The translations under genes and the position numbers were made by a program. This document shows positions 43,702-62,465 of a stretch of DNA of 64,000 nucleotides, in pieces. The stretch is from Antedon mediterranea (Eukaryota > Echinodermata > Crinoidea > Comatulida > Antedonidae), in contig NC_092670.1 of assembly GCF_964355755.1 (NCBI RefSeq), positions 36,443,795 to 36,507,794 of the forward strand. Reading direction: 5' to 3'. The notes under the pieces are model-generated. The model was not told the origin of the DNA, ran no database searches, and saw only the letters and a program-made list of their open reading frames with translations. Within the stretch, counting starts at the first letter, position 1, and each line of letters opens with the position of its first letter.

Positions 43702-46700
43702 ATGAGCTTTGCTGATTATAGCCAAAGAGCGGAGGACCACCAATGCATGCTTGTTCTGGTCAAGCAAGTTGGTCCTCACAAGAGTAACCTGTTCCACAAG
43801 ATCATTGATCGCATCTTTCTGGTAAACCACACGTTAGTCCCAGAATCAAAGCGACATGTCTGGCTGCGCTTTAAACGAGTTGTTCGTCTTGAGAACAATG
43901 CGTGGGGTGACTTTCAAGCGCATCGCCGTGTTGCTGGGTTGATGTGCGTAGGAAAAGCAACAACGGAAATAGAATTAGCAAGTATTTATGCTAATTTTGA
44001 CACGATGAAAGATGGGTACAAATCAACATTGTTTGACTCTCGTTGCTTTGTTTTCGGAATGACGGCAGAGACAGCAATGGAGTCTGTGTCTGGTGAAAAA
44101 CCAGATGTAGTGTACTTCCCAAGTTTTGAAGAATCGCAGACATTGGAAGACTGTGTAAACGACTTTGCTTGCTCACTGTTCTGGGTCTTGGAATCTAAGA
44201 GGCTTGAGAGACTGAACGATCGGAACGATAAACTTCCATTGTTAATTGCTCCTTTTGAACGTAAGGACATGGTTGGAATCGACACTGAAACCAGGTACAG
44301 TAAATAGAATTAGCTATTCTGTTGGGTCAGGGATGGTTGAATATGACATACTTACTCCCTCTGACCAGAGTGAAACTTACAAGTATAGTGTATTTAAAGT
44401 TTTGCCAATTTTAAATTAATGTTGTCAACATGAAATTAAATTTCCTTACATCATACAAATGGAAGATATTGTTAAACATCTAAGAAAAAATACTTTCAGT
44501 AAGTTGAAAAGTGAGATTTAGTTGACTATCATTCACTACACTGGTAATATTTCACCCCAAGGGGTAACTTGGAACAGCCATAACGGACCAATCAGTCATT
44601 CTATGACAAGACACCGGTCACCAGTTAATTAAAATTGAAATAAAAGAGTATACTGTACCAACACAGGTTTTTTAAAACCAAAATTTTACTGTATTTTTAC
44701 CGGGTTTAAAACATTTGTTTTTTTGTGTTATAAATTTTCAGAGCATTTAGGAGAAGAGTCGTTGGACGAATGCGCAAGCATCTAGCAGATCTTAGCTTGA
44801 TGGCTGGTTTAGTACAAGAAGCCTTCAGTCATTACCAAGTAGCTTTTGAAATTCTAAAGAATGCTAATGATTGGCTGTGGATGGCAGGTAAATTTTACAA
44901 ACATTAAAGATGTATTGTCCCCCAAAAACATGAAAAATGAAGATTATTAAAATCAGATTTTAAATAGGCTATTTTGTAATTTTAATAAAGTTAATGACTT
45001 CCGCAGGAAAAAATGGAAAAAAATAGTTTTCACTTATAAAAAGACAAAACAAATGGTTAAATTAAATTCAACCAAAACACATTGACTGGCAGTCAATTTT
45101 ACTATTTTGTTCTTAAATTACAGTTTTTTCTCGTAAATATTTTGTTTTTCATCTTTATGTTTGAATGTCGTCTGTGTATTTTTATATTGCCTCTTCTAGT
45201 CAGTTGTACTGCTGTAGTGCTCTGTTATAATGAAATGTATACTTTGTTCTAGCAACTATTGAAGGTATGTGTGCTGCATCTGTTATCATGCTGTATCCTT
45301 CAACATTAAGAAAAGTGAACCTTCCTCGCAACTCATCCTTCACTGGTGGAATGTCACTGAAGCATGACCATGTCAAGATTAATAATAAAGGTAACAATAG
45401 TTGTGTATGTACTGTAATTATTAAGCTCTGTCCACACTAGCAAACTTAAAGCTCTGTGTACACTATCAAAACTAGTGGAAAAAAAAAGTGTGATGTGCCG
45501 AAATTTGGTAGTGAAATGAGGTCACTGTGTCCATATATGAGCACATCATATTTTTTTGTCACATACAGTTTTATAGTGTAGACAAAGCTTTACACCTAGA
45601 GCCTACTGTAGTTGCAAAAGTGTTCATTTGATTACTGTCCGATGTTTTTTGTATATCTAAAATAATCTGGAGAATTGTAACTTTAACAGTAAACTAAAAA
45701 ATATTGGCAACCTCCTGTGATTATTGAGAGGTCTGTGACATAATGTGAACAAGAGTGGAATGCACTTTTAATTACGTTTTAAGCTCTGTCTACACTATCA
45801 AACTAGTTTGACAAAAAAAGTTTGATGTGCCCAAATATGGTAGTGATATGGTCAAGTATGGTAGTGATATGATATCATTATGTCCATATATGGGCACATC
45901 ACATTCACATACAGTTTGATAGTGCAGAAGAGCTTTAGTGACCACAATTTGTTTACTCTTTGCAGCATCTACGTTACCATCAAATGGCCTGAAGGAAGAC
46001 ATGTCAGATGAGAGGCAGAAGATATGCTATCCTGCAGATGATATAGTAGAGAAGTACAAAGAGGCAATTATGCATTATAGTAAGGTGTGTGAATCTTGCA
46101 TCACTTTATCTATTTTCTTTCCATTTCATTGTGTCAGAAAAGAACAAGAATATATAAAACAAAAAAGTTAAAAATCCAAAATACTGGTTAACCAAAAAGC
46201 AAAATGAATCACTGTCAGTGGCTCACCAAAATAGAAATTAAAAAGAGTATACAAATTATATTAAAATTCATTAAAATTCTTAATAAAACATTTAGAAATC
46301 ATAATGATATAGTTAAAATCTAAATAATAAACTATTATAAATGAAATGCTTTAACCCCTTCTCTGCGTATACCCGGTACTAGACATATAGACGTCGTTGA
46401 AATACGTATACACGGTAATACCGGGTATGGGCAAAACATATTAGTTGCCTATAATATATAGCAACCTCTATATTTTTTCGATGAACTTGAATATTTTTGC
46501 AAGTCATTAACATTTTTTTCCAGCAAAAAAAACCGCCCTCTATATCGTCTTGAAAATAATGCGCCCTCTATAGTATAGTTAGCACTGTTTATACTTATGT
46601 TATTCAAATAACTGACAGATTTTCTTTATCATTATGTATGTTTGATTCTATTAATAGTATAAGCATGCAGGCATTGTAGAGATGGAAGCCAGCATCAAGG

Positions 46701-49700
46701 CTACACAAGTGATTATTATGCAACAGGTAAGTGAGTTGTATACTGTATTAAATTGTTGCTTCTACTGTTAAGGCCAATTTACACAGACGAATGTTAAAGG
46801 TACAGTAAGCGGTAAACATAAAAATAGAATCTATGTTTCTTATGACCAGTTACACAAAACGCGGAGTGGATGGGTGGTTGAGCGCAAAACCCACTCAAGA
46901 TAGATACAGATTCTATGTGGGACATTCAAGCTACACGGTGTCTGCCAACCGTTACTGCTCGTCTGTGTAAATAGGCCTTTAGATGCCTTCTTAAAGATAG
47001 ATTGCTATAGCCTGTTTGGCAACTTTTGCAAGCTCTGTAACAGAGATCAGAAATAAACAAATTAGAAGAAATATAAGAAAATAAGAAAATTAAAAATAAC
47101 CTTTGCAACAATATTATTTATATTTTTTTCCACTAGCAAATGTTTGCTAGTTGTACAAATCTAACTAGCAAAAAAAGAACCAAGCTAGCAAGTAAAGACA
47201 TTTATTATCAATAGTGTTTAGTTTTTATTAAAAAAAAATTCTCTATCCCATAATAATTATTAAGTTATATTCACTTGTTATCCCACTTTGTGCGGTGCTG
47301 CAGAATAAATCCGGCATCGATAATGATAAGGTATTGATATCAGTTTCATATAAAGCTCTGTTTACACTATCAAACTTTATGTGCCCATATATGGACATGA
47401 TGATGTCATATCACTAGCATATTTGGGCACATTACACTTTTTTGTCAGAAGTAGTTTGATAGTGTAAACAGAGCTTAAGTTTAGTTTAGTAATTACTTTA
47501 TGAAGTATTTACCCTTTTTTCATACTAATTAAAACAAGATTTTGTGTAATATTTCAGTAATTTTTTTGTTGTGTACAGTAATTTTCTAAGGATATACTTT
47601 GTTTCTCACTGTTAGTCTTAATTGTAAAGTGATTTTATTTTATATTATGGATTTCTAATTAGAAAACAAAGAAAAAAAACCCAGAAAATTTGCATATGTA
47701 AATGAATAAACCAGTATTTATTAACTGTACATTAAGTTCATTGCATGAAATATTTTAGTTGTGATCCTGAAGTTTGATGGCATGATTTTGATTTAGAATC
47801 CTAAGAAAGCGGTTTATTAATTTATTTAATTATTATTTAATATTTAACACCACAGGTCAAAATGTTAATGTTAAATTTCATATTTCCCATCAGTATTTTC
47901 ATATGATAGATATGTGTTGTCACAATTCATTTATTTACACATTGAAAATGAAATTTTATAAATTAAAAAATGTATTTATTTTGAGTACATTAAAATCTAA
48001 ATGTCTATGCATGTTTTAATTTTGTTGATAAAATCATTATAGTATTAGCTGTGAACATATAAATAGATTTTATTGATGTTGGGCTAGTTTTAAGAATTAG
48101 GGATACCAATTGATACAACAGCTAAATGATGGTGTATGTTTGTAGATTACAATAGCATAAAATTAAAATTCAGAAAGTCTAGTCTAATTTCATTCAACTA
48201 TAATTATATAACTATAACTTATTATATACAATAAGAAGTCATTTTTACCTTCTTGTACCATTTAAAGTTCTTCGTAAACACCTTTAATCATTTTTGTTAT
48301 TTGCGTTTTCCTAAATTTTTTGTTTTATGTAGAAAAAACTTGAGGCTGCAGAGTTTCTACAAAACGTTGTGTACATCAACTTGAATCTGTCTGACAGCGA
48401 AAAAGTTGAACGCTACAGCGCCCTCTCACACTTATTCTCAGAGATTGGCTTTAAGCGTAAAGCATCTTTCTTTAAGCGTGTTGCAGCAATGCAGTGTGTG
48501 TCGCCAAATAACCCATCTCCTGCCTGGGGACATGTAAGTAACAAAAGCCAGTTTTAAATGTGTATTAAAAAGAGCTCTTGTGTGTGTCCAACTCGGACAG
48601 CGAGACGTATCATGACGACCCAAAAACAACGCCCGATGCTATCTCCAGATGGCTCTTCATGATTCAATTTAGACAGCACCGAAATGTTGTACGATAATGT
48701 CTGAGTTGGCCTTTACCTGTGCTCATTCTTCTGTCTATGTGAGGAATTGAGATAGACCAATACACTGGGGTTAACCCCTACTCTTCCTAAAGATACATGA
48801 GTTAGGTGTGCACACTCCGCCTTCAGTTATACGTCCTGTTCTACCTCCAGAACTAATGGTCAAGGAAAGGTTTCAAACTGTGCCTATTTATGACTACGAT
48901 CTACCGAGTCCCGGCTTTAACCACTTGACCACTTGACCCGACATGTATGGATGCTTGACCTGACATGACATGACATGACTTATTGATGGATTTAATTTTA
49001 TTATACATCTTTTACATTAGATGATTTAAAAAAATGTTTATTTATTTTCAGTGCCACTCAATGCTATTAGAAACTTTGAAAGGTTTCAGAATAACCCTTG
49101 AACCCCGAGAGTTCATGTCAAACAAAACAAATGGTTGGCCAGACCTTCAGCAGAGGATAATGCAAGAGCTAGTGTTCACTGCTAGGAAAATGGGGAAAGC
49201 TGAAATAGCCATAAGGTATTTGTAATTTCAGCTAATTTTCTGCTAACTCTGTAATTAATGAAGTTAAATATTTTGGCACATATGGCGTTTTATACCTATG
49301 ATATAATATTCACAATTACAAAAAACGTTGACTTGGTGGACTAACATAAAAACGACAATTACTATAAAAAAAAATAACTATGGACTTAGGGCAAATCTAA
49401 AATGAAACTGTGTTATGCCCACCCAATTTGAAATTTAGTTTAAGAGATTATAGGTTATAATAAATCCTAAGCACCAAAATGCTAGCCTCTACCATTGAAT
49501 TGAAATTTATATTTATACTGGGTAACCTCTTCAGTCAAAGACTGGTCTCCCGGAGGGCCCAGTTGGTGATCAGTGGCTGTGATGTACTAATACACCGGGG
49601 TAACCCCCTACTCGTCGCGAAAGATGTACACGAGCTAGATGTGTACACTGGACCTACGGTTTATAGTCCTTATCCGGGAAGACTCGTTCTACCACCAGAA

Positions 49701-52700
49701 CCATGGAGTGAGTGAGCCTCGAAACCCTGCCGATGTTATGGCTACGTAATTACGGTTCCACTGTCTTAACCGCTCGGCCACTCACTCACTCAACCTGCAA
49801 TTAATAGCTCAAACTATACTTTATTTTAAATATATTAATTTAATTATATCCTTATTATTAAGTATGTACTCCTGTAAACAAGTTTAATGATTATAATTTG
49901 TTGTAGTATTGACCATAATTTATTTATTTTTTTTTTAGGTATATGTGTTTTATTCTTCATTGTCTCTCGGATCACTTGACAACATTAGAGAAGCGTGAGT
50001 TAGCTGCAATGCTAGAGAGCTACACATCAAAAGTACCAAGTCCAACTGACAGTATCTCACTTGACAATGGTCTTCTTTTACCTCCGGTACCATTCACAAA
50101 ATTTCCATCTCTTAGGTTAGTATTTAAGATTTGTTTTACCACAAATTACCTACATTTTTCCTGGCCATACCTGAGTATCAGACTGTATTCATATTTCACA
50201 TATTATATCTATTAGATGAGTGTATATATCACAGCCCCTGGATTGAACATATACTGTACATGTACGCTAGCAGCCAACATGTTTTATACAAAAAGATTAA
50301 AAAAATTCACACTTCCATTCCTAGTTAATAATAACCTTATGCAATAATGAATGTCTGTTATTGATATCTCCGATTATCAAATCAAATCAAATCAATTTTA
50401 TTTCCACAATATTATAACATACATACATATTGTTGTTCCTTGTGCCCAGACATTTGATTTTTCTTTTTTTATGCAATAGCTTTTATAAATCGGCCTAGGA
50501 TATAGATACTGTAGATATAGCTGTTGATTTTCCTCATAATGTTATATAATTTATTTTTTTAATGAATTTTATATTTTTTTATATTTTATGTTGCAATTTG
50601 GCTTGATTCTATATTTGTACATTTTTTTTCTATTTCATAATCATATTTGTATTTTTCTATTGAGCAATGTCGATTTAAAAATAAATCAGAATAAATGAAT
50701 GAAAATGTAGATACTGCATTGATCCCAACACAAATATGTATGTACATACCTTGATCTGTATAGAACAAATTTAAATGCAATCTTTTTCTTTACTTTCTTA
50801 CAGGTCTTTTAAATTAGTACGTTTGTCCCCTCATCTAGACCCTGTGCATATTTTAGTAGAAAGTCCTAGTTGTAAGTCACCAGTTTTCAAGAGTCCATTC
50901 ATCTATTCACCTCTACAATCAATGAACAGAAATAAAAAACTACCACCAACCAAAGTTGGTAAGTATCGTATACACTGTTGCTTAAAGACCTGTAATTTTT
51001 AAAGTTTTGTGAAAATAATGGATATATATAACTTTAAAAACATTAAACCGGGTCATTTCTTGTGCGTTCTAAGGTAAATTATGATAAAACGAGAAAAACA
51101 CTGCATTACCTAAGTAACTCGCTTCACTTTTTTTTTACCGTTTAAAGAAGAACAAAATTATTGCAATAGGTCCACATAGTATTTCTTTTTACATAAAATG
51201 TAGTATGTGACCTTAAATTAGGTACAAAAAAACCTGTAGGTCTAGTGTCTTTTACTAAATAAGTGGTCTATTGTTCTTGTCTTAGAGCCTTGCAATGATC
51301 ACTGTTAATTTATGTTTTTCTTTAATAATAGCTTTTAAATGGGTTGCTGAAGAAATGTGTGAGGTTGAATTAAAGTTCTATAATCCATTACCATTTGAAC
51401 TCCGTGTTGCCAATTTGGTAAGAACATTTACTTTAAAAAAAATTATTTTATAATTATTATCTGCTCTTACTTAATACTTTGGGTTCTATAGTGTAGTCAG
51501 AATATAACTGTGATACTAACTTTAATCTTAGTCGGTATGAAATGGGTTTAGTGAAGTATATTAAGAATTCACCGATTGTTGTGTTCATTTCACAACTTCT
51601 CACTAAAATGTACATTAGTCACCGTGGCTGTGTGTGTGTACTAGTACACCGGGGTAACCCCCTACTCGTCTTTTTAAAGTGCACCTGAGCTTGATGTGTA
51701 CACTGGATCTACAGTTTATAGTCCTTATCCGAGAAGACTTGTTCTACCACCAGAACCATGAAGCAACTGGGCCATGAACCCTTGACGTAATTTCCGTTCC
51801 ACTGTTTTAACCGCTTGGCCATTCACTCCCTTTTCTGTTTTATATTAAAGTTTCTTTCCTGTTTAACACTTAATACTAGTTACAATATTTTATCATAGGG
51901 CTTCCTTGCTGAAGGGGTTGAGTTTGACCCCACACCAGCAGCTATTGTCTTACCGGCTGAATCTGGTCCTCATCTTGTCTCCATAATGGGGACACCAAAG
52001 AAGATGGGCACATTGAAGATAACAGGTAAAGAAATGTGTACATTTGCTTGTTATACAAAGTTAAGCTCTGTCTACACTATCAAACTCAAGTTAGTGTTTA
52101 CCGACCGACCAACCAACCAATTGACCGACCGATATAGTGAGCTGTAGAGTTGCGTTGCACGCGACTAAAAATGTGATGTGCCCATATATAAATATCATGA
52201 TGTTATATCACTACCATTTTTGGGCACATTACACTTTTTTTGTCAAGTTTGACAGAGCTTTAGACAAGTTTACCTAACCCTATTTATTTTGAATAAATAA
52301 CCGTTTAATATAACCTCAATTTTTTGTTTTTATTTTAGGATATACCACACATGTAATGGGTGTAAAAAGTAATTGCAGGTTACCATTAATACCAAGTATC
52401 AAAGAGCCATATTATGAGGTTGAAGTAGTTCCGTCACTTCCGAGGTTAAAGGTCACAACATCATTACCAAAAGCAGCAAGTACACTTAGTCTAAAACCAG
52501 AAACAAAGAAGGTTTCTGTAGCATCATCTGTGAGCCTATTAGAAGGAGAAAGGTAATGTAAAGTCAATTGTACATATGTAGATTTGTGGTTAATATGCTT
52601 GCTTTCCAATCCCAAGGTCCGGGATTTAATCCTGATCATTTGACAGAGTTTTAACTCACTACTGTTCCTACTCAATCAATCTCTTTTATTCATCTTAATA

Positions 52701-55700
52701 CACATAACAAAAAAGGAGTAAATTAGATTTAAATAAGATGACAGTAACCTCTAGGAAACCTTAAAGGCCCATTTACATTATGGCGATAACGATCGACGAT
52801 AAATAGATAAACATGCATTTTTCTTGGATAAAACGAAAGAAATTAGAACATTTTTCGTTCTATAACTATAGGATAATCATGTATGCTGTATTTGATAAAA
52901 ATAATATTTTTGAAAATTCAATCAAATGACGTCATGATCAGTAAAACCATAAAATCATTGTATTGTAACGATATTATTGCTCTTACTAATCATGACGTCA
53001 TTTGATTGGACGTGTGAAAATATTATTTTCATTTAAGGCAGCATAGATGATAATCCTATAGTTCTAGGATGAAAACTTTTTTAAATTCTTTTGTTTTAGG
53101 TATGGAAAATGCATATTTATCTTTTTATTGTCGATCGTTATCGCCCTAGTGTAAATGGGCCTTAAGGGTCCTGTGATAGGAGGCCCACATAAAACTAGAC
53201 ATTAAGATATAACAAAATAAAGAAATAGCTTTAAAGCATTCACTCAGCGTCAAAGCATTGTTTATTTCATCCATCCTGTAATTGGCAAGTTGTTATCTGA
53301 AATAAGAACTGCAGTAGTTATAAAGATGTTTGATATTCTTAGATATAAATGATACTGCAACATACTGCACTGCAATTTGTTTATTGTGTACTGAATGCTG
53401 TAATATCATATACATATTGCATTGATCTCATTTCAGCTTGTCATGCCAAGTAACACTAAGCAATACAGGAAAGGCACCAGTAGAGACGGCCACATTAGAA
53501 CTTATGAATTTAGGTAAGAAGCATAATAATGCAGATAAATTAATTTGGTAACTGTTCGATATCGATCAAACACTACCAAATTCTGAAGTTGGTTTTTTGC
53601 ATGTTACTTTACTCTAACCTGGGGAGGTGCACATCTTCAACTAGAAAGCCACTCCGAGAGTGCATACCTCCGCCTACTGTAAAATTCTCCTACATAAGAT
53701 TTCTCCGGTAAAAAAAAAATATATATATATATTTGTGTGTGTCTTAATGCTGTTTGTGATTTAGGCTAATTTCATTACAAGCATGTGTATGCGAGTTTGG
53801 TGCAATGGTTATGTAACAAGCCTTTCAATTAACAATAGCTTCAGTTGACTAACAATAGAACAGCAACGCGAAAATCAAACGAATGAATTTGAAAACAAAT
53901 AGGTTTTTTAAACTACTCGCATCAAAAAACGTGCACATTAAATCAAATTATGTTTCAAAATTACAAATCACTCTTGCCTCTTGTTAAAAAATGAAGTTTT
54001 TTGGACAAGTTGTTCTCGAGAAAATGCAATTTCAGTTTACTTGTTACTTTAAGACTGCTCGCCGGCTTTTGAAAAATTCTGTCCTATCTTTTAACACTAG
54101 CAGGTCTAAAAAAGTATACTAAAAAGTGGTCCAGAATTGGGACTGTGGTCCCAAATGGTCCCAAAATTTAATGGAATGGTCCTTGACCACATATCTATCT
54201 GTCTATTTATTTTGGTAAAGATCTTGTAATTACTTTTTGAATAATCCTGCTAACAAACAAACAAACACACGCTACTGATTACATATACCTCCTTGGCGGA
54301 GGTAAATGATGTGGAATTAAAGTTAAAAAACTGGATTTCGTTTTCCAGTTGGTGATCAGTGGCTGTGATGTACTAATACACCGGGGTAACCCCCTACTCG
54401 TCTCGAAAGATGTACTAGGTTCTTTAAAGTGCACACGAGCTAGTTGTATACACTGGACCTACGGTTTATAGTCCTTATCCGAGAAGACTCGTTCTACCAC
54501 CAGAACCATGGAGTGAGTGAGCCTCGAACCCTTGCCGATGTTATGGCTACGTAATTACGGTTCCACTGTCTTAACCGCTCGGCCACTCACTCGATTGTGC
54601 CTCAATGGAAGGGTGCACATGAACCCAGTTCACCGCCTAGCCTACCCCCTTTGCTTATATGTTGTATTTACTTGAGTAATTGTTGTTGCAGATTCAGTAC
54701 CTAAAGATTGCTTTACTTGGAGTGAAGAAAATATAGAAACGCAGTTGCCACTGGCAACCGGTGGCAAGTTACTCTTTACAATATACATCAAAGCTATTGG
54801 CGATTTCCTTTTAAAAAGTGCAATACAAAATGATGGTGAGTTAATGTTTAAATTATTCATTATTAAATGTAAACATTTTCAGCCATATTTATGTATATTG
54901 ATGATCATTTGATTAGCATTTCAGCAGCAATAATTGAGTAAACCTCTTTTTGGAGAAATAGATGATTTTTGAACAGTTAAAATATGATATTATTTTTCAA
55001 TAAATGAATTTGATTGTTCTTTACTGTCCTTTCATTTATCCACTTTTTATTTGACCCATAACATAACATTTTCATTTTTATTCTCAAAGAGCTTTACCCA
55101 TCATTTATACCAGCCACTACCATTTCAATTACTGCAGTAACAACAAAAAACGATTCAATGTTTTACAGAAATGCCAGAGACGCCAACAGTGAGTAGTTAT
55201 TTCAATAGCCCGGCTCGTAGTACTCCAAATCGTTCGGTATCAACAGCATTTATAGAAGCTAGTAAACCATCGAGGATACAAGATAAAGTAGACAGTATAG
55301 TTAAGGTATGTTGGCTATTCATGGTCATGTATTACAATATGTTGACCCCGGACTGTCAGACTGAATATGCTATGCATGATCTTAAAACAAAAATAGGTTT
55401 ACTAAACAACTTTTGTTTTGTCTTCAATTAAATGACAGGTTATTGTCCAATGTCTAAAGATTAGGCTATGAGCATTTCAAAGAATCTTGCCTAAAGTCAC
55501 CCAATATGTAATGGGTAATATTTTGCAGCAAAACTAACCAAATGTATGGTGTACTAATACCTTTTACCTGTGTCAGTACAGTGTATTATAAATATTCTCT
55601 TTATTAATCCCTAAAATAACGATTCTCTCCTCTGATTCTTTACCACGTCGAAACACCGGTTCTCGTCAGATTACCGAAGTTAAGCCCGGTAAAAGCTTGG

Positions 55701-58700
55701 ATGGGAGACCATCTGGGAATATCGGGTGCTGTATATGGAGCTGGGGCTCCCGTTAGGCATTTGAAATCAGCACTGTTGACTCTAATGGCAGCCCCTGCAT
55801 CAAGTATCTGCCTCAGACGTATTGGGTTATGCCTTTCCTCTGGTCAAGGTGGGCACTGGACGAGAGGAGCCCTTGATCAATGTTAGGACCGATTAAGGTG
55901 CTTTAAACAGTCCTGGCTTTGTTTGTGTCAAATGTGTTAGTGGCGGTAATTATCGCTGTTGGTTTCGATTGAATAAAATAAATAAATAAAATAAAATAAA
56001 GTACACTTTCAACACTTTCATTTCTTTATTTTAGACAATTGAAGGTATGTTGAAGCTGACGTATTCAGGTGGTGAAGGGCTGAAAGATTGTTACTATCGT
56101 GAGACAAATATATTAATAAAACTTCACAAGAAACCATCGCTGATGATCACGAACTGGACGACGATACCAGCAACAAGGTACAAAATATGTAATATAAATG
56201 TTTTCCTTTCCTTGTTCTGTTTCTTTTTTGTAGCTTTTTCTTATACTTTTCCCCTTTTTATTTCTTTTTTTTTCTTTTTTTGTACTTTTTCCCCTTTTTC
56301 TTTTATTTCTTTTTTTATTTTTTCTTATATTTGTTTAACATTCTTATGTACTTTTATCCTTTTTTCCTTTTTATAATTTCTCCTTTTTTTTGTATTTTTT
56401 CTTTTTTTTTCTTTTACTTTTTCTTTTTTTGTTTCCCTTTTAATTATTTGTTTTCCCAATTTATTTTAGCTGTTTATCTTTAATCTTATATTTTTATTGT
56501 TCTTTTCTTTTTGTCTAATTTTTCCCTTGTTCTTGTTATTTTTTTCAGCCATTTTTTTTTCCGTTTTATTTCTTTCCTTACCTGTGTTTCTCTCTTTTTC
56601 TTTCTTTTTCCTCTTTTCCATTTTCCCCTATTTCTTTATGAGCTATTTTTTTTTATTTCAGTCCACAGCAATTTTACTTGGTGTTAGATTTTTTAAATGG
56701 AACATGCAATGAAGTACATGTGCAATATGGCAGTAATCAAAGTATGATATTAACCCACAAACAGAGTAAAAGGTAGGATAATCAATTTCATCAAAATTTA
56801 ATCATTTTTACTGTAATTTATTCAAATTAAGCTCTGTCAAACACTATCAAACTAGTTTCACAACAAAAGTGTGATGTGCCAAAATATGGTAGTGATATCC
56901 CTAATATGATAGTGATATGACACCATCATGTCCATACTGTATATGGATATTTTTGTTGTCACATAAAGTTTGATAGTGTAGACAGAGCTTTACAAATGAC
57001 AAATGGGTGTCTATGAGCCTGTTTCTAAACATTGAAGTCGGTTTTATAAAAAGATCGTGTTGCATTTAAAAATTGCTCCACTGCAAACTTTTCTAAAACC
57101 TGTAATTGATCAAGGTTGGAAAAATAAAAGAAAATGATGGTTTAAGTTAAATTTTTTACCTCCATATGCAGTCACAAATAGCTCAAAGTGTTAGAAATAT
57201 ACCTGTGCTGAAGAACATTTTGGTAGGAAATGAAAATGCATGCATATCAAATGCAGGTATGAACAAAAAGAAGAAATTCAACAAAGAATGCCTGCAAACA
57301 CTTACAAATAAAAAAATGAGTAGGGTGTGTTTTTGAAAGAATTTGATTTTCAGCCTCCTTGTTCTAATAAGTCACAATATAAGACAAAGCGTGAAATATA
57401 TTTTTTCATTTTTGCGTGGACACAAAAATCGCAAGGTATTTTTAAAAAGCGGTAGCGAAATCACCATGGTAAGGTGGTATGAAAAAGAATAAAAATCAGT
57501 TGACTAACAGCGGTGTGGTTTGCGTGTATGATTTATAAATTGCCTTGTATTCACTCTCTTCAAACTTTTCTATTTCGTGTTTGTTTCACAATACAGGATG
57601 AGAAACTTGTTTCTCCCTACTGCAATGAGGCAATTCAATGGAAACGTTGATCATTTTATGCTATACCTTTACACACACACCAATCTTGCTTGTATTTTGT
57701 ATTTTAAACGATGTATTTTATCTTCAAATTTTAACCTTTTTAACTAATTTTTATATTGTTATGTGAATTTTTAACTTTGAACAAACAACAATAATTTCAA
57801 AATACCATATTTTACTGTGTTTGACCATGAATAAATGAAATTATGTTTTAAAATAAATGCACTTTTTTGCATCGTTGGTTAATTTCCCATTTGTCAACAG
57901 GATAGCAATCTTACTAGATAGATTTACAATAATACAGCCTAAGCCAGCTTCTCCGGTCACACCTAAACCAGGCTGTGTGCCTGTACTTCAGGAGCAGGTG
58001 AAGCTTGATGTATTATATGCTCAGCAGCTTGCCATGCTTACCAATATCACATGGTCTATAATATCCTTTGTTAATATTAAATTATGATTTATCCACTAAA
58101 TATCAGATTTTAGCATTCAATTTTTATTGATGCATGCATGACCCAGTTTTTTTAATTGAAATAATTTACATAAACGTTTATATTAAGCATGATGTTTTAG
58201 GGAAATCGTTAATTTGAAGGGGCGTGAACTTCTAAAGTCAGTAGGTGTATTATCTTTTTGTGTCAAAGTTTAGAATACTACAATGCACGTCTATTGTTAC
58301 TACTATAATTTATAGCTTTCTGTAATATCCAGATGTTTTACCCTATACAGTACTTTTGACGCTGATGGCTATCGGAAATCGTTGACTCACGGTCAGCGGC
58401 TGTCAATATACGTATAACCATTATTTTGCATTCTAACTAAGTTGCACAGCAATAACCGGTTATATGGCGTTCTAACACTGAATTGATTAGGTATTTTTAA
58501 CCGTTATTTTCAGGCTGCGATATAACAGGTTACCGAAAATTTGTCCTGTTTCTGCTGCGAAGAAATTGTCGTTAATTTATTCACACGTTTCATAACTGGT
58601 TAATAACCGTTTATAGAAACAAGACCGTTGAATCTTAGTAAGGCTGTCCAGAACTTGGACGCTTATTAGTGGCCCCAAAAAGGTAATGAGTATCGAATGA

Positions 58701-61700
58701 GTCGAATTACAGTGATTATTAACGCAATGCAAAATTTGTTTTTAAAATAAACATATCAAGCACGGCTCTCAGCTTCACTTTAGTAAAGACATCAAACATT
58801 TTATTATTCAAACGGTGACATTTACATTGGCACTGCATAAAATACAAGTTATCATCATGTATGTGAAAGTTGAGCTTCATGCAGGTTGTCGTTTTGTAAC
58901 ACATGGTTCATCAAATATGATGATTATGTGTGAAAAGTTTTCCAGATTCTTCGTGGGAAATATCATTCAGTGTGAATTCCTTATGCGTGATATATTGTAA
59001 TGTATTTCACAATGTGTGATGAAATTAATGGCCATAGAGTACTACACTGTAGAATGATATGAAATTGTTCAATTTCAATAGTTTTGAAAGAGTGTCCATT
59101 CGTGTTGAAAAATGCTATATTAATTAATAGTAAATACAACAAATAAATTGAAAAATGGGGGAAAATAAAACTAGCTTTATGTAGGTTTAATTTTGATAAA
59201 AAAAAATTAGCTAAATGCGATTACAAGTATAACATTCTGAAAATGTGAAAAATTAATGTATTTGATCTAAGCGGACACCCGGTAAAGTGTCAGTCTATCG
59301 GAGATATCTATTTATTAGGCCGATAGACGCTCAAACTTTTTAACACACCTCTGAATTTGCTGTCATTAAAACAAAATCCAAAAACAAATAATAATTAAGG
59401 TGTCTTCTTCTTCTACAAACACAAAATAAAAATGGTAAAAAGTTTCTAGGATGTGTCCGATAGTATATTTATGACCTGCCAATTTTTTTTTTTTACACTG
59501 AAGAAAAATTAATAATTAATTAAATAATTTTTCCACTACCTCTTATTATTTAAAATTAATAAAATGTACAGCTCTGCTTTGTAAATGAAATCTGTTTTTC
59601 AAGTTGTAGAGTTTAAAATTATATTCGTCTTTAACAAATACTGTACTAGTAATGAATCATGCAATTTAATTGCCGTTATCATGTTCGCGTGACCAAATAC
59701 CAGCATATTCTACAAGTTTGATAAATTTATATGCATTATGTATTTAACCAATTCAATATTATTACAGTCATTAAATTAAATTGTAAACTGAAACCTCGGA
59801 AAATATTAATTAGTAGGCCCCTTGATATAATCTTTTAATCTCTTCTTTCAGTTAAAGCGTGGTTCCCACTAGCGACGCAACGCAAGGACGTAACACAACG
59901 CAAGTGAATTGACCAATCTCAAGCGATGGCTTATTCGCTTGTGATTGCTAACTGTTTATAACTTCGCTTGTCATTGGTTAAAACGCTTCCGTTGCGTTTA
60001 AGTCCTTGCGTTACGTTCTAGTGGGAACCACGCTTTATTTTGACAATCCTATTGTAATGATATTCTTAATAATACAAGAATAATTAATATAGGCAAGTTA
60101 CCAGTAGGAGTACCAATAGAAGCTTAAAACAAGTTGTTATGAAATAAATAAAATTGTTTTTCAGCATAAACCATATATTAAAATTCTTATGAATTTTATA
60201 TTTTTATCACAAAATTGTAAATTTCAGTAAACCTAACATTTTAAAATTAGGCATACTATCATCATCATCATCTGCACTCAGACCTAGTAAGGTCAAAACA
60301 TAATTGCTCTGATTACTAGCTGCATAATAGGAGTATGTTTCCATAAGTGTTTAATCCAAAAGTTGACAGGAGTTATAATGTGAAGCGCTTAGAAGCAATG
60401 TGCAATAAGTGTTATATAAGAATGAGTATATTATTATCATCTTCTCCATCACCACCATAATCATCACCATCCCCATTGTCATCGTCGTTATCATCACCAC
60501 CATCACGATCATCACCATCACCGCCATAATGATCATCGCCATCAACATCACCATCGTCATCATCATCACCATCACGATCATCATCATCACGATCATCACT
60601 ATAACTGCCATCGTCATCATCGACATCAACATCACCACCACCTTCATCGTCATCACCATCGTCATCACCACAACCATCACGATCATCACCGTCATAACCA
60701 CCACCACCTTCATCGTCATCACCATCATCATCACCACAACCATCACGATCATCACCGTCATAACCATCACCACCATCGTCATCACCATCATCATCATTAT
60801 TAATAATACCATCATCATTATCTTGTTGTTCTTCATCTTCTTCATCAGCATCACCATGATCACCATGATCATCATCACCACCACTGCTGGATGTAACCCT
60901 CCTCCTGCATTTTCCAATTCCTTGGATATCACTTTATGATGTCATCTCCCAACTAAAATTTGAATGGCGATAAAGTGCAAGTTTAAAACTTTTACTTTGT
61001 ATTCAAACACAAGCAGAATTCAGTATGGTACCATATTTATTTTGATAATAATTACAAAGATGATTGATTGCATTAATTTCCCCAAGCACAAGATTTGTCT
61101 TGACTTGGTAAGTGATAGTGCTTGTGATGTTCCCTTGATACGCTTATATCTAATTCAGTAATTTAAAAAGACTTTGTGCATGTTTGTAAACGTAATTTAA
61201 GAGCTCATCTATGCCAATATTATACAGTTGTTTGTGTGCGGTACAAATCATGAATATTGTTACGAATGTTTCACAGATGTGTTTGTTTGTCACCTATGTG
61301 TACTAAATACCGTTAATGATCGTCCCTTGCCAGTTCATCAGGAATGCCACGTTGTTAATTTGTTTGTAGTACAAGTGTACTTTACTTTAAAAATAAATAT
61401 TATGACAGGATGTAGAGTATTCCTTAACTAAGTTATTAGGCTGCAGAGAAAAGATCCGGTACAGTATCAGTAGAGTACATTTCCCTATCTGATGCAATGA
61501 TAGACAACATCCGACTATGTCCCATCCAGTGGAGTGTCACCATTAATGAGATGCAGCATGAACACCAGGAGGATCCTTTAAAGGTGAAGGTTGGTGAAAT
61601 CGTTGACCTCCGGGTCAATCTGACGAACAACATGGAGGAGTTGTTGGATGATTTGAGTATTGTGGTTGAACCGTTTCAAGATCAACAGAATGGTGTGAAG

Positions 61701-62465
61701 CTTGCGCACTTCGATGAACATGTGGCATGTATGGGTTGCAATAAGGTTATAGATGAATCAGTAAGTATAATTTAGTAAAACAGTAAAAACACAGAGAACA
61801 TACAGTATGTATGATATTTTTGTATTTTGCCAGTTTTCAAATCACATTTCTGTTTTTTAAATGGACAATAAAGTATATATGACACTGACTATGACTATGA
61901 CTATGTATATTACAAGGAATTGTTTTAAAAGCCAACATTTTGTATGATTCTTTAAAATCAACCCAATGTTGTCTGTGTTTTGTTTTTTTTTGCCAAAAGC
62001 CGCCCAACCAATCAACCAATAATAATAGAGAACAACATGTTGCAAACACAAATAAGTCGATTCCCGCATGCAGCTGGTTTTACTTTGGTTTTTTTTTTTC
62101 ATGTTTTGAATCCTTAATGATGATGGTGTTTGAAAGTATATAGCTCTATGATCCAGTAAAAATATCATTTCCCCTTTATTTAGCTTGGGGCAGGATTGTC
62201 CTTAACGCATACATGCCAGTACGTCTTCTTCCAGCCCGGCCTTTTCAAGTTCAGTATGCAATGCAGGGAGAAACGTCCACGCTTCAGCAGCAAAGACTCT
62301 CCGGAGGCAACTCCTCAACCAGAAAGGCTTAGCCTTCAGATGCCACGCATCAGCCAGCCTAGCAAGCCTGTTACGACACCCAAGTTTAAAGGAAAGGCAC
62401 AAACCAGCCTAACAGTGTGGAAGTACAGGCCTCCGATAGAAGTGCTAGTAGTAGGGGAGGGGTGA
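43702..62465 (+). CDS. TRAPPC9: TRAPPC9 (NIBP/Trs120), TRAPPII vesicle-tethering subunit
   Basis: Subunit of the TRAPPII Rab-GEF and tethering complex at the Golgi; in mammals also linked to NF-kappaB signalling. Exons: 43702-44294, 44742-44887, 45253-45390, 45966-46084, 46658-46726, 48333-48533, 49052-49215, 49939-50115, 50804-50958, 51332-51417, 51899-52025, 52339-52552, 53437-53513, 54692-54835, 55169-55305, 56035-56177, 56662-56772, 57901-58060, 61440-61760, 62184-62465. All phases agree, giving 1187 aa (human about 1150-1250). Matches: [109 protein letters not shown]. Acceptor TTTTAACAG at 43692 precedes the start, so a 5' UTR exon lies upstream. Introns carry many MITEs, SINEs and a U12-type intron. 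The last 60 or so residues diverge from vertebrates and are Pro/Ser/Lys-rich. Confidence 0.96.
44903..45160. repeat. Family H repeat, rearranged copy
   Basis: TTAAAGATGTATTGTCCCCC is followed by reversed parts of the 38152 copy (GAAGATTATTAAAATCAGAT, AAAAGACAAAACAAATGG). TRAPPC9 intron 2. Confidence 0.6.
45421..45591. mobile_element. Family A MITE with duplicated left terminus
   Basis: AAGCTCTGTCCACACTAG is followed at once by a second AAAGCTCTGTGTACACTATC. The body then runs to TATAGTGTAGACAAAGCTT. Central CCATATATGA has lost one base match. TRAPPC9 intron 3. Confidence 0.82.
45780..45936. mobile_element. Family A MITE adjacent to the TRAPPC9 exon 4 acceptor
   Basis: Complete ends and intact CCATATATGG. 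The element ends 29 bases upstream of exon 4 (45966), leaving only a short remnant of the intron with TTTACTCTTTGCAG. Any branch point further upstream must fall inside the MITE. Confidence 0.88.
46370..46440. repeat. Inverted repeat ACCCGGTA/TACCGGGT
   Basis: TTAACCCCTTCTCTGCGTAT with ACCCGGTACTAG, then ATACCGGGTAT. Resembles one end of a TIR element. TRAPPC9 intron 4. Confidence 0.4.
46769..46981. mobile_element. Family F MITE
   Basis: Inverted ends AAGGCCAATTTACACAGACG and CGTCTGTGTAAATAGGCCTT, with GGTAAACAT/CCGTTACTGC inner arms. A fragment with CCAATTTACACAGACGAGCG is at 19378. TRAPPC9 intron 5. Confidence 0.8.
47352..47477. mobile_element. Family A MITE, short form
   Basis: AAAGCTCTGTTTACACTATC to GATAGTGTAAACAGAGCTT; CCATATATGG intact; the left arm lost the TTTGACAAAA segment. 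TRAPPC9 intron 5. Confidence 0.85.
48745..48945 (-). mobile_element. Family C SINE, degenerate
   Basis: ACTGGGGTTAACCCCTACTC and, at the right, CTTTAACCACTTGACCACTTG follow the order of family C with many changes. TRAPPC9 intron 6. Confidence 0.5.
49553..49795 (-). mobile_element. tRNA-derived SINE (family C)
   Basis: Minus strand: GGCCGAGCGGTTAAGACAGT (A box) and AGGGTTTCGAGGCTCAC (B box with one extra T), then a body ending CCCCGGTGTATTAG. TRAPPC9 intron 7. Confidence 0.75.
51630..51830 (-). mobile_element. tRNA-derived SINE (family C), diverged
   Basis: ACTAGTACACCGGGGTAACC to TTTTAACCGCTTGGCCATTC; the region between the boxes is shortened. TRAPPC9 intron 10. Confidence 0.68.
52061..52261. 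mobile_element. Family A MITE with internal insertion
   Basis: Ends match the family. About 85 bases with (ACCG/ACCA) repeats (GACCGACCAACCAACC) are inserted after CTATCAAACT, and the centre reads CCATATATAA. TRAPPC9 intron 11. Confidence 0.75.
52577..52690 (+). mobile_element. tRNA-derived SINE (family B), plus strand
   Basis: GTGGTTAATATGCTTGC then CCAATCCCAAGGTCCGGGAT with TTTAATCC, the same order as the minus-strand copies at 1538 and 5748. Begins about 25 bases after the exon 12 donor. Confidence 0.5.
52761..53165. mobile_element. Family E MITE, 405 bp
   Basis: AAAGGCCCATTTACATTATG to CCCTAGTGTAAATGGGCCTT; same length and layout as 9959-10363, with TGACGTCA in both arms. TRAPPC9 intron 12. 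Confidence 0.85.
53668..54306. mobile_element. CCTCCGCC-ended repeat
   Basis: Starts GAGTGCATACCTCCGCC and ends CCTCCTTGGCGGAGGTA. Near the right end, read on the minus strand, are TTTGTTTGTTTGTTAGCAGG and ATTATTCAAAAAGTAATTAC. I recall this word order from a repeat seen in many eukaryotic and some bacterial sequences. Its class is not known to me. TRAPPC9 intron 13. Confidence 0.65.
54346..54600 (-). mobile_element. tRNA-derived SINE (family C), best copy
   Basis: Minus strand: GAGTGGCCGAGCGGTTAAGA (A box), GGGTTCGAGGCTCACTCAC (B box), body ending CCGGTGTATTAGTACATCAC. The left boundary AGTTGGTGATCAGTGG is shared with 49560. It ends about 90 bases before exon 14. Confidence 0.8.
55642..56000 (+). 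mobile_element. 5S rRNA-derived SINE (SINE3 type)
   Basis: ACCACGTCGAAACACCGGTT, GAAGTTAAGCCCGG, GCTTGGATGGGAGACC and CTGGGAATATCGGGTGCTGT follow 5S rRNA in order, including the internal Pol III control boxes. A non-5S body shared with 4057-4305 and an (AATAAA)n tail follow. The tail ends about 35 bases before TRAPPC9 exon 16. Confidence 0.9.
56205..56661 (+). repeat. T-rich tract running into the TRAPPC9 exon 17 acceptor
   Basis: About 450 bases, nearly all T and C on the sense strand, ending in TTTATTTCAG at 56661. It is effectively a greatly extended polypyrimidine tract. The open frames within are low-complexity by-products. Confidence 0.85.
56828..56992. mobile_element. Family A MITE
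   Basis: AAGCTCTGTCAAACACTATC to GATAGTGTAGACAGAGCTT; centre altered (CCATACTGTATATGG). TRAPPC9 intron 17. Confidence 0.82.
57590..57690 (+). mobile_element. Possible LINE ORF2 tail remnant
   Basis: [17 protein letters not shown] is reminiscent of RT C-terminal ends (RNSFFPTAVRLWN). Short and uncertain. Confidence 0.25.
59854..60036. mobile_element. Family D MITE
   Basis: AAAGCGTGGTTCCCACTAGC to TCTAGTGGGAACCACGCTTT; complete and nearly symmetrical. Confidence 0.9.
60430..60895. repeat. (ATC/ACC)n trinucleotide array
   Basis: About 460 bases of CATCATCACCACCATCAC-type triplets. Stop-free on both strands, which explains long spurious Thr/Ile- and Met/Val-rich frames. Inside the U12 intron. 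Confidence 0.92.

Follow-up and report, generated by a model that had tools for sequence, protein, structure and literature searches.

A predicted U12-type intron with AT-AG ends in the TRAPPC9 gene of Antedon mediterranea

Results

The TRAPPC9 gene and its longest intron

We analyzed a 64,000-nucleotide stretch of the Antedon mediterranea genome (the window), in which a TRAPPC9 gene lies on the forward strand (Table 1). The gene model was built by hand with every junction in frame, and its translation runs through 1187 codons without an internal stop. The predicted protein matched Pfam PF08626 (TRAPPC9-Trs120) with an E-value of 9e-47. Eighteen of the 19 introns are GT-AG, with donors that agree with the U12 consensus at no more than 6 of 9 positions, while a U12-like donor together with a U12-like branch site was found in one intron only (58061-61439). 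This intron is the longest of the gene, the second longest measuring 1606 bp, and its length fits the figure of about 3.4 kb given in an earlier note on this DNA. Its junction is spanned by a PF08626 match (1104-1209); a PDB search for a TRAPPC9 chain over the junction returned yeast Trs120 as the sole match, which lies outside the junction region.

Table 1. Features of the TRAPPC9 locus in window coordinates.
Feature	Position	Strand	Details
TRAPPC9 gene	43702..62465	+	20 coding exons encoding 1187 aa; uninterrupted from ATG to TGA
Upstream exon	57901..58060	+	ends ...ATC ACA TGG TCT ATA (NITWSI)
Predicted U12-type AT-AG intron	58061..61439	+	3379 bp, phase 0
5' splice site ATATCCTTT	58061..58069	+	full match (9/9) to the A-type U12 consensus; pairing possible with own-genome U11 and U6atac
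GTTAAT, rival GT donor	58070..58075	+	would insert ISF in frame
In-frame TGA	58085..58087	+	met if the intron is retained; read from sequence
MITE	59853..60037	+	~185 bp, 20-bp perfect terminal inverted repeats, TA-bounded, inside the U12 intron
Degenerate ATC/CAT trinucleotide-type array	60436..60877	+	~442 bp
Branch site TTCCTTAAC	61420..61428	+	9/9; branch A 61427; can pair with own-genome U12, one A unpaired
Intron 3' terminal AG	61438..61439	+	intron tail ...TTATTAG
Downstream exon	61440..61760	+	starts GCT GCA GAG AAA AGA (AAEKRSG)

Minor-spliceosome signals at both intron ends

A U12 5' splice site was defined by [A/G]TATCCTT, which the TRAPPC9 donor carries within a full match to the consensus, and the AT at 58061, with its U12 donor and branch site, places the intron in the A-type class. 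For the branch site we looked for TTCCTTAAC or a similar sequence at a short distance from the 3' end, and the intron contains TTCCTTAAC itself, with the branch A at 12 nt from the last base of the intron; the optimum for this distance is 11-13 nt (PMC3584512). The earlier note had described perfect U12 donor and branch signals, the latter 11-12 bases before the acceptor, and this description held in sequence, position and spacing. By inspection, the intron tail TATTCCTTAACTAAGTTATTAG has no polypyrimidine tract. The 3' end of the intron is AG, and no AC able to serve as acceptor was found, the AC at 61461-61462 being 35 nt away from the branch A and in frame with other donors only.

Both ATATCCTTT and TTCCTTAAC occur once in the window, counting both strands, where shuffled sequence is expected to hold 1.43 and 0.91 copies, respectively. 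Neither motif is rare singly; the signal is that a single phase-compatible intron carries both, one at each end. We estimate the joint chance of this arrangement at ~1e-6 over the 19 TRAPPC9 introns (121 donor positions x 1.1e-5, x 8 branch positions x 7e-6, x 19).

Insertions and repeats

The intron had been said to contain a MITE, and this element has at least 40 scored copies in the genome, nearly all others being 95-97% identical (a first look gave 1034 candidates). TA bounds the ends in all four copies that were read. The number and sequence similarity of the copies suggest that the family was recently active. The trinucleotide array that had also been reported is real, but it is degenerate and ~442 bp long rather than 460 bp. 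Both insertions lie well away from the U12 splice signals.

Other repeats are also present at the locus. A second family, with termini CTCTGTCTACACTATCAAAC and its reverse complement, has many copies in the window, several of them within TRAPPC9 introns (positions 1947, 3737, 28461, 37505, 39457, 39880, 45784, 47356/47454, 52066 and 56832/56968), and at two places its termini form facing pairs ~100-140 bp apart. By eye, a ~200-230-bp repeat (CCGGGGTAACCCCCTACTCGTC...CGCTCGGCCACTCACTC) also recurs in several TRAPPC9 introns (49550-49780, 51640-51830 and 54350-54590).

Minor-spliceosome components in the genome

The earlier note had made its reading depend on the presence of minor-spliceosome snRNA genes, and U11 (two loci, 88.6 and 82.9 bits), U12 (125.7 bits), U4atac (97.6 bits) and U6atac (136.6 bits) were all found above the Rfam gathering scores. 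AAAGGG of U11 and AAAGGA of U6atac can pair with UCCUUU of the TRAPPC9 donor, and the U12 snRNA stretch GUAAGGAA can pair with UUCCUUAAC, leaving one A unpaired. Exons of CENATAC, a factor required for A-type (AT-AN) introns (PMC8280824), were found on contig C8 of the genome.

The two U11 loci (L001 and L002, 1501-1629; G000:C5 and C8) are diverged yet share an identical 5' end, AAAAAGGGCUUUU. A second, shorter and diverged U6atac match (L005 1501-1602; G000:C7:8523554-8523655) scored 33.7 bits against a cut-off of 33 and is probably a pseudogene.

A-type introns elsewhere in the genome

For PHB2, KCMF1 and STX6, AT-AC U12 introns are listed in fly, with human orthologues of U12 type (PMC2831892), and their introns in the Antedon genome served as internal controls. 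The exons of PHB2 and KCMF1 were located with protein queries, and those of STX6 through Pfam PF09177 and then a sequence query. All three introns (3/3) keep the ATATCCTT donor and have a U12-like branch site 13-14 nt from their ends, resembling the TRAPPC9 intron in both respects. Their tails read CTTAAC-ATTGATTTGTAC for PHB2 and CTTAAC-GATAATGTTTAC for KCMF1, each with the branch A 13 nt from the end, and TTTAAC-ATATTTGTTTTAC for STX6, where this distance is 14 nt. In contrast with TRAPPC9, which combines an AG end with a branch site matching at 9 of 9 positions, all three have AC ends and branch sites that agree at 7-8 of 9. Since the control introns end in AC, the AT-AG combination looks specific to TRAPPC9 among the A-type introns tested (n = 3 controls).

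Discussion

Relation to known introns

In our literature search on TRAPPC9 and minor splicing, Lin et al. 2010 (PMC2831892) was the one report found. It describes a CT-AC U12-type intron in mouse and rat Trappc9, while most of the orthologous introns in other vertebrates have AT-AC or GT-AG ends; the presence of a U12-type intron in this gene is thus already known. The gene, the U12 type and the labile terminal bases are common to the vertebrate TRAPPC9/Nibp intron and the one described here, whereas the AT-AG ends of the Antedon intron differ from the AT-AC, GT-AG and CT-AC ends of vertebrates; the report names the gene but gives no intron position. AT-AG termini are also found in U12-like introns of human NUP210 and CRYZL1 and in an intron of ACTR10, where the site arose recently from a canonical one (PMC4176328). 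Among conserved animal minor introns, ~3.8% have non-canonical ends, most often AT-AA or AT-AT (PMC10639083), and AT-AG has been described as a disfavoured, poorly spliced combination (PMC3584512). The earlier description of AT-AG as a rare subtype does not mean that it is new: the TRAPPC9 intron is a further case of a known intron type.

Alternative explanations

One wrong base at one end of the intron, for example a C read as G, would make a true AT-AC or GT-AG intron appear as AT-AG. The sequence comes from a single assembly, the control introns are AT-AC, and vertebrate TRAPPC9 orthologues mostly have AT-AC or GT-AG ends (PMC2831892), all of which such an error would accommodate. However, neither the frame nor the adjoining bases bear any sign of an assembly error, and AT-AG U12 introns do occur in nature (PMC8280824, PMC4176328). 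We consider an error of this kind improbable, although it fares slightly better than the other alternatives.

The intron could instead be removed by the major spliceosome as a GT-AG intron starting at GTTAAT, with the U12 motifs persisting as decaying relics. The GT at 58070 is in phase 0 and frame-compatible with the acceptor at 61439, and splicing from it would give TCTATAATATCCTTT/GCTGCA at the junction, compared with TCTATA/GCTGCA for the AT-AG splice. However, TTT/GTTAAT is a weak U2 donor, the AG is not preceded by a polypyrimidine tract, and relic signals would not be expected to remain at 9/9 at both intron ends. Among 48 frame-compatible splices listed near the junction, the top motif score goes to the AT donor at 58061 with either of two AGs: that at 61438-61439, for which the branch A lies at the optimal 12 nt, and a tied rival at 61447-61448, which is in frame at 21 nt. 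The AT-AG splice scored 34.8 bits against the Pfam profile, compared with 30.8 bits for the GTTAAT splice, which adds the residues ISF at a cost of 4 bits. In a comparison with human TRAPPC9 that serves as a lead only, ICWRI/PSLKRSG aligns without a gap with ITWSI/AAEKRSG across the AT-AG junction; against the same stretch (ICWRI/PSLKRSGEASVE), the GT splice needs a 3-residue gap. The claim that the AT-AG splice restores protein spacing is supported by both comparisons, while a nearby GT-AG junction, which had been named as the competing outcome, is weakened at the level of sequence to the point where we regard it as very unlikely.

It is equally hard to credit that the first A of the intron (58061) is edited to inosine, such that the spliceosome would see a GT-AG U12 intron. 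There is precedent for this, in that the AT-AG U12-like introns of human NUP210 and CRYZL1 are reported to be A-to-I edited (PMC4176328). In contrast with those introns, no local editing duplex was found for the TRAPPC9 donor: no inverted repeat within 400 nt places it in a long duplex, and the donor region folds no better than shuffled sequences (z -0.40). Furthermore, editing is not required, as splicing from a 5' A works with any base at the 3' end (PMC4176328). Finally, a lineage-wide shift in the 3' ends preferred by the minor spliceosome of Antedon, for which the TRAPPC9 intron would be the sole support, is the least credible explanation given that the A-type introns of PHB2, KCMF1 and STX6 in the same genome end in AC.

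A probably inherited A-class intron with a changed last base

Since vertebrate TRAPPC9 has a reported U12-type intron, the likeliest reading is inheritance followed by a change of the last base to G. Together, the splice signals, the snRNA genes and the control introns make it very probable that TRAPPC9 of Antedon carries an inherited U12-type A-class intron that ends in G instead of the usual C, and the ancestral intron would presumably have been AT-AC. In cells, 58061-61439 would be spliced as drawn in Table 1: U11 and then U6atac would pair with UAUCCUUU at the 5' end, U12 would pair with UUCCUUAAC near the 3' end, and the spliceosome would then use UUAG, the first suitable 3' site, which lies ~12 nt further downstream.

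In the literature, AT-AG minor introns figure as disfavoured intermediates on the path between AT-AC and GT-AG. The TRAPPC9 intron, whose signals are otherwise perfect and whose rodent orthologue also has odd ends, is well suited to testing whether a poor last base can be offset by a strong donor and branch site. The splice also bears on annotation, as pipelines that allow only GT-AG introns could shift this junction by three codons. A more tentative idea, which we think unlikely, is that the U12 intron of TRAPPC9 acts in animals as a hot spot at which terminal bases switch (AT-AC, GT-AG, CT-AC and AT-AG), with strong donor and branch sites perhaps causing such switching by relaxing the constraint on the end bases. 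If this is true, its variants could be used as a natural series to examine how intron ends are read by the minor spliceosome.
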